64,000 nt of DNA, from positions 11,836 through 75,835 of the forward strand of contig CAJNCS010000009.1 in NCBI GenBank assembly GCA_905221325.1, in the 5' to 3' direction. Source of the DNA: a bacterium. GTDB taxonomy: Bacteria > Bacillota > Bacilli > Lactobacillales > Streptococcaceae. Below, piece after piece: positions 16,426-51,623 of the stretch (positions within the stretch are counted from its first letter, which is position 1; each line of letters begins with the position of its first letter). Under the pieces are notes generated by a model. That model had not been told where the DNA came from. It saw nothing but the letters and a program-made list of their open reading frames with translations, and did no database searches. The position numbers were made by a program, and so were the translations under genes.

Positions 16426-16456
16426 AGTTTAAGAAGAAAAATAGAATCTCCTTTCT

Positions 16457-17344
16457 TTATTTTGTAGTGATGAGCCCATCAGGCTCAATGTTAAAGGCTT
16501 CTTTATCGGCCATGCGACCATCAGGAAGCAGCATGTAGTATCCGCCATTGTAAGGCACAAATGTGTTCGATTTCATATCGCCGTTGACAGCATCCAGGTA
16601 ATACCATTTTTCATAGTATTTAACCCAACCAGTCTGCATAGAGCCATCACGGTTGAAGTAATACCATTTGCCATTGATTTTCTTCCAAGATGTGGCCATA
16701 TAGCCATCCTTGTCGAACCAATACCATTTGCCGTCTGTGTGCTTGAGCCAACGTTCAGAATACATGTATCCACGACTGTCGAAGTAGAACCATGATTTGT
16801 TTTCTTCAATGTACTCAAATTGGTCTTTTGGATAAGAGCCATTTGCACGAACCCACCAATAGCCTGTGTCATTCTTTTGCCAACCTGTCTTGACTTCTTC
16901 GGCAGTTGCAGATGGATTAGTCAGACGATACACATAGTAGTAAGGTCGTCCTGCATAGAGCCAAATATCGTCGTGGTCATTCACTGTGATGCCGTCAAAA
17001 CGATAGTTACAGTGGATAATGTTATCACTATCCACGAAAATACCAGTATGGCCACCTGCTCCACTAGAATATCCACGACGCCCCCAGATGAAGATATCCC
17101 CACGTTCAGCATCCCACGGCTGATTTTCTGTGATGAGTTCATATCCGTTCTTAATAAGCCAGTCATGCTCATACTCAGTATTGACCGCCCATCCAGCGGA
17201 TACAGCTCCAGCACTCGTCAAAGCGTAGTAGATCGAACTTGAGCAATCGTAAGAGTCAGGTCCATTGCGGTCATCCATACTATAAGATACTTGACCTTGT
17301 CGTGCACGCATCCAAGCGATAGCTGTTTCAATGTTTACTGCCAT
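16457..17344 (-). CDS. phage lysin: Amidase_5 (NlpC/P60-like) with choline-binding repeats
   Basis: The ATG ending at 17344 (AAAGGGGA upstream) gives 295 aa. Residues 1-140 form an Amidase_5-type peptidoglycan hydrolase with the catalytic-type Cys in [10 protein letters not shown] and His in [10 protein letters not shown]. Residues about 150-290 hold roughly six choline-binding repeats ([24 protein letters not shown]). It cuts the cell wall of choline-teichoic-acid streptococci at the end of infection. It overlaps the preceding holin stop. Confidence 0.92.
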
Positions 17345-49429: not shown

Positions 49430-49642
49430 ATGAGTAAAGAATTTGATGCTTTTAAAAATTCTACTTACGCTACTTTAAAAACTATGATTTCTGGTGATGT
49501 AAATATCGTTTTAGGAATTATAGAGACTTTGCTTCAAGCACAAGCAAAAGATCTTGAAAACACATTTACAAACCGAAAAATCGATGATTTGATGAAGCGT
49601 GTTGCTGAGTTAGAGTCACAAGTCGATGAATTCTCAAACTAG
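49430..49642 (+). CDS. 70-aa plus-strand phage protein
   Basis: MSKEFDAFKNSTYATLKTMI then helical segments and a C-terminal coiled coil (RVAELESQVDEF). It is divergent from the Cro-like gene with its own promoter and a strong ribosome-binding site. Its 3' end overlaps the minus-strand 49566 frame. Expression from the prophage is plausible. No family recognised. Confidence 0.7.
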   Translation: MSKEFDAFKNSTYATLKTMISGDVNIVLGIIETLLQAQAKDLENTFTNRKIDDLMKRVAELESQVDEFSN

Positions 49643-49784
49643 CATCATCTAATTTCTGCTCAGCTCGTTCTTGCTTTTTTTGAATTTTAGCATTAAAGAC
49701 TGAGTAAGCATCTTCCCAAACCTTGACTACTTCCGTGGTCGAGGCTTTTATCTTGCCACTGAATGGGTATCTTTTAGGTCTCAT
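49566..49784 (-). CDS. 72-aa phage protein (KRYPFSG type), antisense to the 49430 gene at its end
   Basis: The ATG ending at 49784 encodes MRPKRYPFSGKIKASTTEVV, related in its start to the 39664 gene. The last 25 codons run antisense through the end of the 70-aa plus-strand gene. Both are plausible; the overlap lowers confidence. Confidence 0.5.
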   Translation of the reverse strand: MRPKRYPFSGKIKASTTEVVKVWEDAYSVFNAKIQKKQERAEQKLDDASLRIHRLVTLTQQHASSNHRFFGL

Positions 49785-49788
49785 TTCA

Positions 49789-49932
49789 CTACCTCGTCTC
49801 ACTTTCTATCGCCCTGAGTTCTATCTCATGGCTGACTTGTCTAAATAGCTTCTCACACGCTATTTTAGCTTCTCTGTACGTTTTAGATTTACTGATGAAG
49901 TAATCAGCAAGTTCAATGATTTTATCTTCCAT
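49789..49932 (-). CDS. 47-aa small phage protein
   Basis: MEDKIIELADYFISKSKTYR then EAKIACEKLFRQVSHEIELR: helical. The stop lies 4 bases before the next ATG. An 18-bp perfect palindrome lies 14 bases upstream of its start. Confidence 0.6.
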   Translation of the reverse strand: MEDKIIELADYFISKSKTYREAKIACEKLFRQVSHEIELRAIESETR

Positions 49933-49946
49933 GATTGTCTCCGAAA

Positions 49947-49964
49947 ATCGGTCTTAAGACCGAT
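49947..49964. promoter_or_regulatory. 18-bp perfect palindrome
   Basis: ATCGGTCTTAAGACCGAT. It could be a repressor site or an RNA hairpin in the leader of the 47-aa gene. Confidence 0.6.
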
Positions 49965-50049
49965 GTGTTAAGCAACTTGATTTTGCATAATGAATATATC
50001 TTTACGAAGGGAGGACACTTTATTTGTCCGAGTTTTTGTATAGAAATGT

Positions 50050-50338
50050 GATCAACCTTTGAAAAACGTTCTCACTAACGAACATCAGTCTTTCCAACTG
50101 ACAAGTAACTAGTGCGGAGAAAAGGGATTGAGTTATCGACCTGCCGTGCTGTTGTGATAGCAACTGTACGAGTAGGATGGAAACTTTAACTCTTTCCCCA
50201 GAACTCCCCGAGAATTAGTATTCGCAGTGAATGATGCATGTGTAGGAAGTGGAACCTCCGAAGTGATTTCAGTCTTACCAACGTTGATCTATAAAAAATC
50301 CACACCTCCAGCGACTTGGTAACTTGCTGGAGTTTTTT
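50050..50338 (+). ncRNA. candidate structured non-coding RNA with terminator
   Basis: Helices read by eye: closing stem GATCAAC (50050-50056) with GTTGATC (50283-50289); hairpins CGTT/AACG (50067-50080) and TCAGT/ACTGA (50085-50101); a long nested hairpin 50116-50207 with GGAG/CTCC, GGGA/TCCC, GAGTT/AACTC, CCTGC/GTAGG, CGTGC/GTACG and GTTG/CAAC; and ATTC/GAAT (50220-50232). Two pairs are G-T on the plus strand and would be C-A on the minus strand, favouring plus. A terminator follows. No promoter or known family was identified. Confidence 0.55.
50306..50338 (+). terminator. intrinsic terminator after the RNA candidate
   Basis: CTCCAGC and GCTGGAG form a 7-bp stem with a 13-base loop, followed by six T residues on the plus strand. 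Confidence 0.8.
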
Positions 50339-50400
50339 AATCCATTATTGCAGAATCAACATTTACATTACCTCCTTTTTTATTTCGCTCCATGAGCAAC

Positions 50401-50441
50401 AGCCTGCCAGGGAGTCGAACCCTGGTGCTACCGATCAGGCT
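50401..50441 (-). ncRNA. tRNA-like minihelix (acceptor stem plus T-arm)
   Basis: On the minus strand: AGCCTG, then ATCGGTAGCAC, then CAGGG-TTCGACT-CCCTG, then G and CAGGCT. The outer arms form a 6-bp acceptor-like stem, the T-arm has a perfect 5-bp stem and a canonical TTCRANY loop, and GGTAG resembles the D-loop GG. There is no anticodon arm. It overlaps the stop codon of the 50435-50710 gene. Alternative: a scar of a tRNA attachment site. Confidence 0.5.
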
Positions 50442-50710
50442 ACATTTATTTTGTCCATCATTCCTGCAAATGCTGCATCAAAACGAATGTCATTGATTTC
50501 ATCTTGAGTGAAACCAGAATCTAGAAGATAACGCTCTTGGCGTTCGATCTCTTCCGCTAACTCTGTCCATCCGAAAGCGAACCGACGGCAGTTAGTACAA
50601 AATTCTTCAAGTTGGCTATAGAGGAAGTTTTCCTCGTATGTATTTTGAAGCAAGGTTTCTGCAACCACTGCTTTGAAGATGTTGATGGCTTTATCGTTTA
50701 ATGTGTTCAT
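50435..50710 (-). CDS. 91-aa first gene of the early operon
   Basis: MNTLNDKAINIFKAVVAETL then helical, with two cysteines (EEFCTNCRRFAFGW) and a C-terminal DEINDIRFDAAFAGMMDKIN. It is the first gene after the strong minus-strand promoter at 50760-50788 and so the first lytic gene. Function unknown; may be an anti-repressor or host-takeover protein. The 3' end runs into the tRNA-like element. Confidence 0.75.
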   Translation of the reverse strand: MNTLNDKAINIFKAVVAETLLQNTYEENFLYSQLEEFCTNCRRFAFGWTELAEEIERQERYLLDSGFTQDEINDIRFDAAFAGMMDKINVA

Positions 50711-50876: not shown

Positions 50877-51623
50877 ATGAATAAAGAAGAAATTGCCATT
50901 GTAATAGGCGAAAATATAAAGCAATATAGGCTTCAAAATGGTTGGACTCAACAAGAATTAGGGACTAAGATAGGGATAAGTAAAAATGCTATCGGGAATT
51001 ATGAGAAAGGTTTTAGATCTCCTAAAAAGGATACAATGTTTGACTTGGCGAATGCTTTTAACATTTCGATTGATGACCTTTTCCCTCCGATTCAAAAAGA
51101 CTCTTCTTCTCCCACTTCCTCCATCCAAACCATCTACGATGAACTAAACTCTACAAGACAAGTAAAAGTCCTGAATTATGCAAAGAGGCAACTTAACGAG
51201 CAGATAAACGAAGAAGAAACGAAGGAAAACGAAGTATCAGAAGTCATTCAGCTCTACAGTTACGACTACTACGACCACCCAGCTTCTGCAGGTACAGGCC
51301 AGTATTTGAACGATGTACGAGTGGAGCGGATTGAGTTGCCAGTAGATATCGATGCCGACTTCGTCATTCCAATCAAAGGGGACTCCATGGAGCCTGACTA
51401 TCACGACGGCGACCTGGTATTCATTCAGACCAGCGTGGACTTAAATAACGGTGTTATCGGAGTGTTCAACTACAACGGTGATGCTTATATCAAGCAGCTT
51501 GTCATCGACAAAGAACAGGCATACCTACATAGCTTGAACCCTGCGTACAAGGATATGCCAATCACACCAGAGACCGACTTCCGAATTATCGGCGAAGTCG
51601 TGGATTTGTATAGAGAGGGATAA
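50877..51623 (+). CDS. CI-like repressor with S24 autocleavage domain
   Basis: The 248-aa protein has an N-terminal XRE HTH (NGWTQQELGTKIGISKNAIGNYEKG, residues 21-45) and a LexA-like S24 domain with cleavage site Ala138-Gly139 (SAGTG), Ser170 (KGDSMEPDYHDGD) and Lys206 (GDAYIKQL). It should repress the early promoter and be inactivated by RecA-stimulated autocleavage, making the prophage SOS-inducible. Start after AAAAAGGAC. Confidence 0.95.
   Translation: MNKEEIAIVIGENIKQYRLQNGWTQQELGTKIGISKNAIGNYEKGFRSPKKDTMFDLANAFNISIDDLFPPIQKDSSSPTSSIQTIYDELNSTRQVKVLNYAKRQLNEQINEEETKENEVSEVIQLYSYDYYDHPASAGTGQYLNDVRVERIELPVDIDADFVIPIKGDSMEPDYHDGDLVFIQTSVDLNNGVIGVFNYNGDAYIKQLVIDKEQAYLHSLNPAYKDMPITPETDFRIIGEVVDLYREG

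Follow-up and report, generated by a model that had tools for sequence, protein, structure and literature searches.

Genetic context of the RNA in the prophage immunity region

The window (the whole stretch of 64,000 nucleotides analysed here, from a streptococcal genome) contained a prophage immunity region at 46–54 kb. This region carried a CI-like repressor gene on the plus strand (50877–51623) and, on the minus strand, a consensus promoter recognized by the promoter scan (TTGACA, 17 bases, TATAAT, with TG; 50788–50760), from which three minus-strand genes would be read: the phrog_5570 gene (91 residues; 50710–50435) and the phrog_2317 gene (47 residues; 49932–49789), both assigned by PHROGs, and a Cro-like gene (49357–49145). 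The sequence to the right of approximately 50357 displayed 85–90% identity to S. pneumoniae/S. mitis phages in 35 of the 36 matching phage records, and the window RNA (see below) was itself absent from these phages.

A perfect 18-base palindrome ATCGGTCTTAAGACCGAT (49948–49965), identified from the sequence as a candidate operator, lay in the gap separating the RNA from the divergent phrog_2317 gene; a near-identical ATCGGTCTTAAGACCGAT-like palindrome with small changes occupied the same position in the Javan367-type loci of sister phages (see below). Separately, several streptococcal members (L162, 3130–3160; L084; and L135) had palindromes of the type TACCGTAAATTTACGGTA overlapping the promoter of the RNA, which suggests repressor control.

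Two further elements were observed nearby: (i) a plus-strand ORF of 70 residues (49430–49642) with promoter-like TGCTATAAT, which had no match in PHROG, Pfam, and PADLOC and (ii) a 41-base sequence imitating the acceptor stem and T-arm of a tRNA (AGCCTG...CCAGGG TTCGACT CCCTGG CAGGCT; 50441–50401, minus strand), located in the early message directly 3′ of the phrog_5570 stop. This mimic was kept in sixteen distinct forms among relatives, some of them with a compensatory T-stem CCAAGG/CCTTGG; it was not called a tRNA by ARAGORN, and its top Rfam match was mascRNA-menRNA, below cut-off.

Extent, fold, and strand of the window RNA

The window element is well supported as a plus-strand RNA of about 340 bases (approximately 49999–50338), with a predicted architecture of 5′ hairpin, multi-helix body, and terminator; with a start some 50 bases before 50050, the conserved element was longer than the preliminary description had it. 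A candidate −10 box CATAAT (49986–49991, plus strand) was aligned with TATAAT of L162 in the L162/L174 alignment (see below), and the transcript would be expected to start from it near 49998–50000; this box was weak, having no good −35 and being missing from the promoter-scan listing.

The RNA body was enclosed by the closing helix P2, formed by GATCAAC (50050–50056) and GTTGATC (50283–50289) with 226 bases between and pair probabilities of 0.94–0.96. Within it lay hairpin P4 (50085–50101; 50085–50089 paired with 50097–50101), a 92-base central arm (50116–50207) with the G-U pairs 50143–50173, 50148–50167, and 50155–50160 on the plus strand, and a small 3′ hairpin (50244–50257; 50244–50246 paired with 50255–50257, with an 8-base loop) followed by CGAAGT, which resembled the 3′ motif of the sister RNAs (see below). 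The intrinsic terminator (50306–50338) consisted of a 9-bp hairpin (50306–50332) and T6, and it started 16 bases past the closing stem, just as had been described earlier.

The fold energies were compared with those of dinucleotide shuffles on both strands: 50050–50290 gave z −3.85 on the plus strand (0 of 1000 shuffles as low) and z −1.88 on the minus strand (36 of 1000), and the central arm (50117–50205) gave z −6.01 (0 of 1000) and z −1.85 (44 of 1000), respectively. These values favoured the plus strand, and the earlier claim of a plus-strand RNA was upheld.

Covariation in a homologue and probable loss of the body in another prophage

Two nearly identical IMG/VR sequences, L162 and L174, matched the window RNA over its full length, with strong ends and a weak middle. 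They were the sole matches in viral_contigs of an exact pattern from the 3′ part of the RNA, while two exact patterns from the RNA body had no match there. Covariation in a homologue, a check that the preliminary description itself had named, was present in L162: in a plain, structure-free MAFFT alignment of two sequences, with the structure taken from one of them, the 59 pairs of the window structure had 95.8% of cells paired, and in 18 of them both bases differed (double changes). When slid by 1–3 columns, the structure had 30–44% of cells paired and 1–4 pairs with a double change, and none of 500 shuffles matched the observed pairing values.

The changes were distributed over several helices: (i) P2 had a double change from C-G to G-C in one of its seven pairs; (ii) P4 had double changes in three of five pairs and no broken pair, and its loop CTTTCCA was kept; (iii) the central arm, its sequence mostly rewritten and its pairing kept, had 14 double changes, 3 one-sided changes, 10 unchanged pairs, and 5 broken pairs among 32 pairs; and (iv) the small 3′ hairpin was unchanged. 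The 7-bp closing stem and the 92-base arm of the preliminary description thus held, as did P4, the second of its two small hairpins; the first (50068–50071/50080–50083) was unsupported because its register shifted in L162 in the alignment as read by eye. The lower part of the long rod predicted as the minimum-energy structure was rejected, since 10 of its 33 pairs broke in L162 and 2 of 33 changed on both sides.

A chance fold in unconstrained sequence, with which a family mean fold energy close to that of shuffles (see below) would agree, is set against 18 double changes versus 1–4 in the slid controls; it is refuted by the L162 covariation unless that homology is spurious, and it is extremely improbable. 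The fold is real, and it is the plus strand's.

The IMG/VR sequence L030, 88–93% identical to the window on both flanks, did not contain 49460–50282: it resumed exactly at GTTGATC, and its junction (L030, 3413–3429) had ATGAGTAAAGAT joined to GTTGATCTATAA, followed by the same terminator. This gap probably represents, on the alignment, a loss of the RNA body, in which case the RNA would be dispensable to that prophage.

The 5′ element: hairpin P1, Shine-Dalgarno sequence, and mini-ORF

The 5′ edge of the RNA had been described as a part of a stretch with no supported gene; it was in fact covered by a predicted 12-codon ORF, and the upstream half of the 5′ hairpin had been missed. This 5′ element was composed of three overlapping features on the plus strand: (i) hairpin P1 (50003–50040), recognized from the fold and the homologue, with P1a (50003–50010/50033–50040), P1b (50013–50017/50025–50029), and a purine internal loop between them; (ii) a Shine-Dalgarno (SD) sequence AAGGGAGG (50007–50014), partly inside P1; and (iii) the mini-ORF TTG...TGA, MSEFLYRNVINL (50024–50062), whose length and frame were kept across lineages. 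The 5′ hairpin, SD, and TTG-started ORF that characterize the family (see below) were all found in the window, as TTTGTCCGAGTTTTTG with SD and 12 codons. An ATG-started mini-ORF (MQIGKIF...) was dropped, since the ATG was absent in the window, L077, and others, and the TTG frame was common to the members.

The length of the mini-ORF was compared across the family after L164, L180, L184, L186, L188, L198, L202, L203, and L204, judged by eye as coding or unrelated, had been dropped. It was 11–12 codons in 7 of 13 lineages (one row each, thus one streptococcal row only; shuffled mean 0.93, maximum 6 in 2000) and in 12 of 18 rows, six of which were related streptococcal rows (shuffled maximum 6 in 2000). 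With six dropped loci restored (one per duplicate, with L202 too short), the count was 8 of 19 (shuffled maximum 7 in 2000). There was no comparable agreement in ORF length in the other two frames. The 32 non-identical peptides included 14 with 11 residues, 5 with 12, 8 with 19, and 5 with 16–31; a one-base insertion altered the ORF of L076 after codon 7, and the ORFs of L109/L117 ended at 12 codons while other enterobacterial forms reached 19.

The P1 hairpin recurred as well, in counts that include related rows: a whole P1-type hairpin was found by energy in 25 of 32 family elements (spacer-shuffled mean 12.2, maximum 19 in 300), and a P1b of at least 3 bp under a strict rule in 21 of 37 distinct elements (shuffled mean 9.1, maximum 16 in 2000). 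The sequence of the inner stem varied while its pairing stayed: GGAC:GUCC in the window, GGGC:GUCC in enterobacteria, UGAU:GUCA in L077, and GGUU:GGCC in L171.

These data bear on the possibility that the peptide is the product and that the structured RNA merely stabilizes or regulates its mRNA. The peptide start M[AST][KE]FL and the peptide length were kept, as would be expected in that case, but the residues past position 5 were highly variable, the covariation sat in the body, and the nucleotides of the first five codons were also explained by the P1 hairpin; a peptide product is therefore very unlikely.

The SD sequence was predicted to form an anti-SD duplex of −15.5 kcal/mol in the window element, compared with −5.5 to −12.8 kcal/mol at 12 other gene starts of the window, and of −12.4 to −22.4 kcal/mol across 32 distinct family ORFs. 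CreT-type RNAs act through an SD plus a few codons, and the family element might similarly be a ribosome- or tRNA-titrating decoy or a tiny RNA toxin that slows translation and harms an invading phage; a predicted anti-SD pairing that exceeds that of ordinary gene starts and an ORF held at 11–12 codons would suit this. Such a decoy has no need of a conserved multi-helix body, however, the members had no rare-codon run in common, and the SD was predicted to be partly buried in P1, so that this explanation is judged unlikely.

The end of the mini-ORF overlapped the closing helix: by coordinates, codons 9–11 were the 5′ strand of P2. A long-range helix at or within the ORF end was thus present in the window, with its double change in L162, and the closing helix of the sister RNAs lay at the corresponding place.

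Distribution of the family across phages

The 5′ end of a sister RNA (see below) provided the search pattern with which the family was found. Four overlapping patterns of the 5′ element matched 22, 48, 113, and 15 stretches in viral_contigs, and 80 of the 113 were among the matches listed. The element recurred in Streptococcus and Escherichia/Klebsiella phages and in further IMG/VR sequences, where it encoded M[AST][KE]FL... at the head of a long RNA body, and all members kept the SD, the TTG start, M[AST][KE]FL, and a short ORF; conservation within TTG..C..RAR-TTTTTG was partly imposed, because the search patterns fixed that string. The covariance model R2, built from the window and L162, matched the 5′ elements of L170 (E 9.6e-9), L169 (E 6.7e-8), L177 (E 2.8e-7), the enterobacterial L148 (E 0.0012), and L171 (E 0.0018). 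The family appears to span phages of Firmicutes and Proteobacteria, i.e., of very distant bacteria.

The enterobacterial form was present in 159 of 5,426 complete E. coli genomes (~3%), with no annotated feature under it among the 60 matches listed of these 159, and in four phage records: two unannotated from Klebsiella and two from Escherichia with hypothetical proteins drawn there. In lambdoid prophages, it lay with O-P-ren on one side and the nin genes on the other and had the orientation of the early genes. Among 284 streptococcal genomes, the 5′ pattern matched 27: eight were family elements by letters, four were ambiguous, and the other 15 were one recurring sequence, a putative chromosomal gene; a backward control pattern gave 4 matches. 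Model R2 matched 5 of the 284 genomes, with the 5′ motif in G160 only.

The orientation of the enterobacterial form bears on the earlier statement that the RNA is antisense to the early lytic transcript, which stands for its position in the window; as a shared property it falls, since the enterobacterial relatives lie on the early-gene strand, and control of the lysis-lysogeny choice through antisense is accordingly unsupported as a shared function. An antisense or trans-acting lysis-lysogeny RNA, pairing with the early lytic or another mRNA and using its body as a scaffold, would fit a plus-strand RNA with a terminator that lies antisense to the early message in the window. It fits poorly with the sense orientation in enterobacterial prophages, where the antisense overlap was not conserved in the homologues, and with a central arm that changes nearly all its bases and keeps its pairing, which fits structure better than a fixed antisense target; this reading is quite unlikely.

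Fold energies were also computed for 24 members in a fixed 280-base frame: the mean z was −1.06 on the plus strand and −0.78 on the minus strand, with 2 and 3 of the 24, respectively, below −2. The energies of the family were thus unremarkable on the plus strand, and the window RNA was unusually stable for it.

Searches by sequence similarity recovered little. The blastn search of the window RNA did not reveal any significant relative among 50,697 phage records (two matches at E 4); it gave nothing convincing in plasmids and E. coli genomes, and, in 15 of the 284 streptococcal genomes, weak matches of 22–52 bases that were judged chance by reading. Such RNAs would escape notice because the middle diverges past sequence recognition, as in this blastn search of the phage records, while the fold persists. 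An origin of the RNA from a transposon or repeat was rejected, as no repeated copies appeared in the genus search.

Sister RNAs at the same locus

Other streptococcal phages (e.g., Javan367, L071; K13; L065) harbored a different RNA with its own terminator in the same gap and on the same strand. In seven sequences of these sister RNAs, 26 of 94 predicted pairs had a double change. The full-length covariance model R1, built from seven Javan367-type sister sequences, matched T-type RNAs and L179 (E 1e-21 to 2.6e-9) and missed the window RNA, its only match in the window being an unrelated one at 16434–16463 (E 1.4). On L162, R1 matched the 3′ motif only (E 0.76), and R2 matched the same motif on L163 (E 0.79), a reciprocal and insignificant pair of matches; the 3′-motif model R3 (13 sequences) had no match up to E 10 in the window, nor in L162/L174. 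The window RNA and the sisters had in common the 5′ element, the layout, and, as compared with Javan367, the locus. Since R1 and R3 missed the window RNA, kinship beyond the 5′ element would rest on topology, and common descent of the two bodies is unproven.

Neighbouring genes of the RNA

The same plus-strand slot carried variable genes in sister phages: a TIR effector in Javan367 and IPP5 (PADLOC PDLC00733; E 3.4e-17 and 1.4e-17, respectively) and a DUF4145 protein like PD-T7-4 in IPP16 (E 3.1e-17). The family RNA and the TIR gene adjoined in Javan367; the 5′ element was not found by pattern at the IPP5 and IPP16 loci. The genes behind the enterobacterial RNAs were variable, too, and PADLOC matched none of the four enterobacterial cargo proteins that were compared with it; in the window, there was no cargo gene next to the RNA. 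With TIR and PD-T7-4-like genes occupying that slot in sister phages, a defence role is plausible, and we tentatively infer one for the RNA, at less than even probability.

The position of these genes could also point to a cis-acting leader, in which the mini-ORF and the body would be an attenuator of terminator read-through into downstream cargo or cI. Ribosome-mediated attenuators work by a short ORF ahead of a terminator, and, as in leader-peptide attenuators, translation of a short ORF would here compete with folding. In several enterobacterial loci, the RNA was immediately followed by a cargo gene, in L110/L132/L156 with no obvious terminator before it as read by eye, and a repressor-like gene followed on the same strand in streptococcal T-type loci. 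In the window, by contrast, the next plus-strand gene was cI (50877), about 540 bases past the terminator and with a minus-strand gene between; across the family, there was no consistent downstream gene (L140 had no cargo before its ninB-like gene), and the large conserved body was far bigger than an attenuator requires. A role as an attenuator is accordingly given a low probability.

Comparison with known RNAs

The whole window was searched against Rfam 15 at gathering score, and six tRNAs only were found; at a relaxed threshold, 49900–50480 gave four matches, all far below cut-off, so that the preliminary description was right in recognizing no RNA family. Rfam matches in L065, L071, L110, L118, L132, and L135 lay only elsewhere in these sequences and below cut-off, and ARAGORN found six tRNAs and no tmRNA in the window.

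Several known RNAs were compared by their features. The tmRNA (SsrA) is likewise a folded RNA with a long-range closing helix and an ORF of about ten codons, but the window RNA had no tRNA-like domain by ARAGORN and Rfam, and its ORF had its own start codon and SD. A retron msr-msd was also considered, and a PHROGs scan of ten neighbouring proteins showed no reverse transcriptase. GOLLD and ROOL are big structured RNAs in Firmicutes phages (PMC12286853); the window RNA was much shorter and had a mini-ORF, and the window and six relatives were unmatched in Rfam. The AbiF ncRNA (RCd22, RF03085) is, according to PMC12373285, a phage-encoded structured RNA tied to anti-phage effectors; RF03085 was unmatched here, and no AbiF gene was among the ten neighbouring proteins scanned. 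STnc6030 of BTP1 (PMC7067206) and svsR (PMC12803456) resemble the proposed role as prophage RNAs protecting the lysogen, but the former, with 786 nt, is antisense to late genes (PMC7067206) and the latter is a 77-nt hairpin within cI (PMC12803456). On their descriptions, svsR, STnc6030, and the AbiF RNAs were rejected as the identity of the window RNA. In PMC8040213, 28 RNA candidates are listed in the vicinity of phage, integrase, or sortase domains.

No description of a mini-ORF RNA of this kind was found in the open-access papers searched, a scope that most subscription journals and bioRxiv lie beyond. The element very probably represents a new phage RNA family, and its architecture is new as far as Rfam and the open-access literature reach, with the reservation that an earlier description elsewhere is possible.

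Proposed mechanism and implications

Because the last codons of the mini-ORF form one strand of P2, translation and the closed fold would exclude each other. The RNA, if transcribed and translated as predicted, would then have two states: a ribosome completing the mini-ORF would open P1 and the 5′ strand of P2, giving an open, translated form, and the untranslated form would be closed. Such translation-coupled folding is considered conceivable at odds somewhat short of even. The strong predicted SD pairing would hold the RNA in its open form as long as initiation proceeds, so that the RNA could sense translation in the lysogen; upon failure of initiation, e.g., when another phage takes over the cell, the closed form would build up. 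This closed form would be the active one and, as a part of prophage defence, might have the ribosome, an RNA, or a protein as its target in trans, and the freely varying central arm could be the site where specificity diverges.

Taken as a whole, the explanation of the mini-ORF RNA as a translation sensor whose closed form protects the lysogen in trans is given an even chance. Its extension to a phage RNA class of Firmicutes and Proteobacteria, in which translation of the ORF opens the closing helix and reports the translation state, lysogen protection is triggered, and the hypervariable arm sets specificity, is more doubtful.

Should this reading hold, a compact RNA device combining a very short ORF with a structured RNA would be shared by prophages whose bacterial hosts are very distantly related, and, with ~3% of complete E. 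coli genomes carrying the RNA, it would be testable in laboratory E. coli. If true, it would add RNA-based reading of translation, or RNA-based protection of the lysogen, to a field that has catalogued mostly protein systems.
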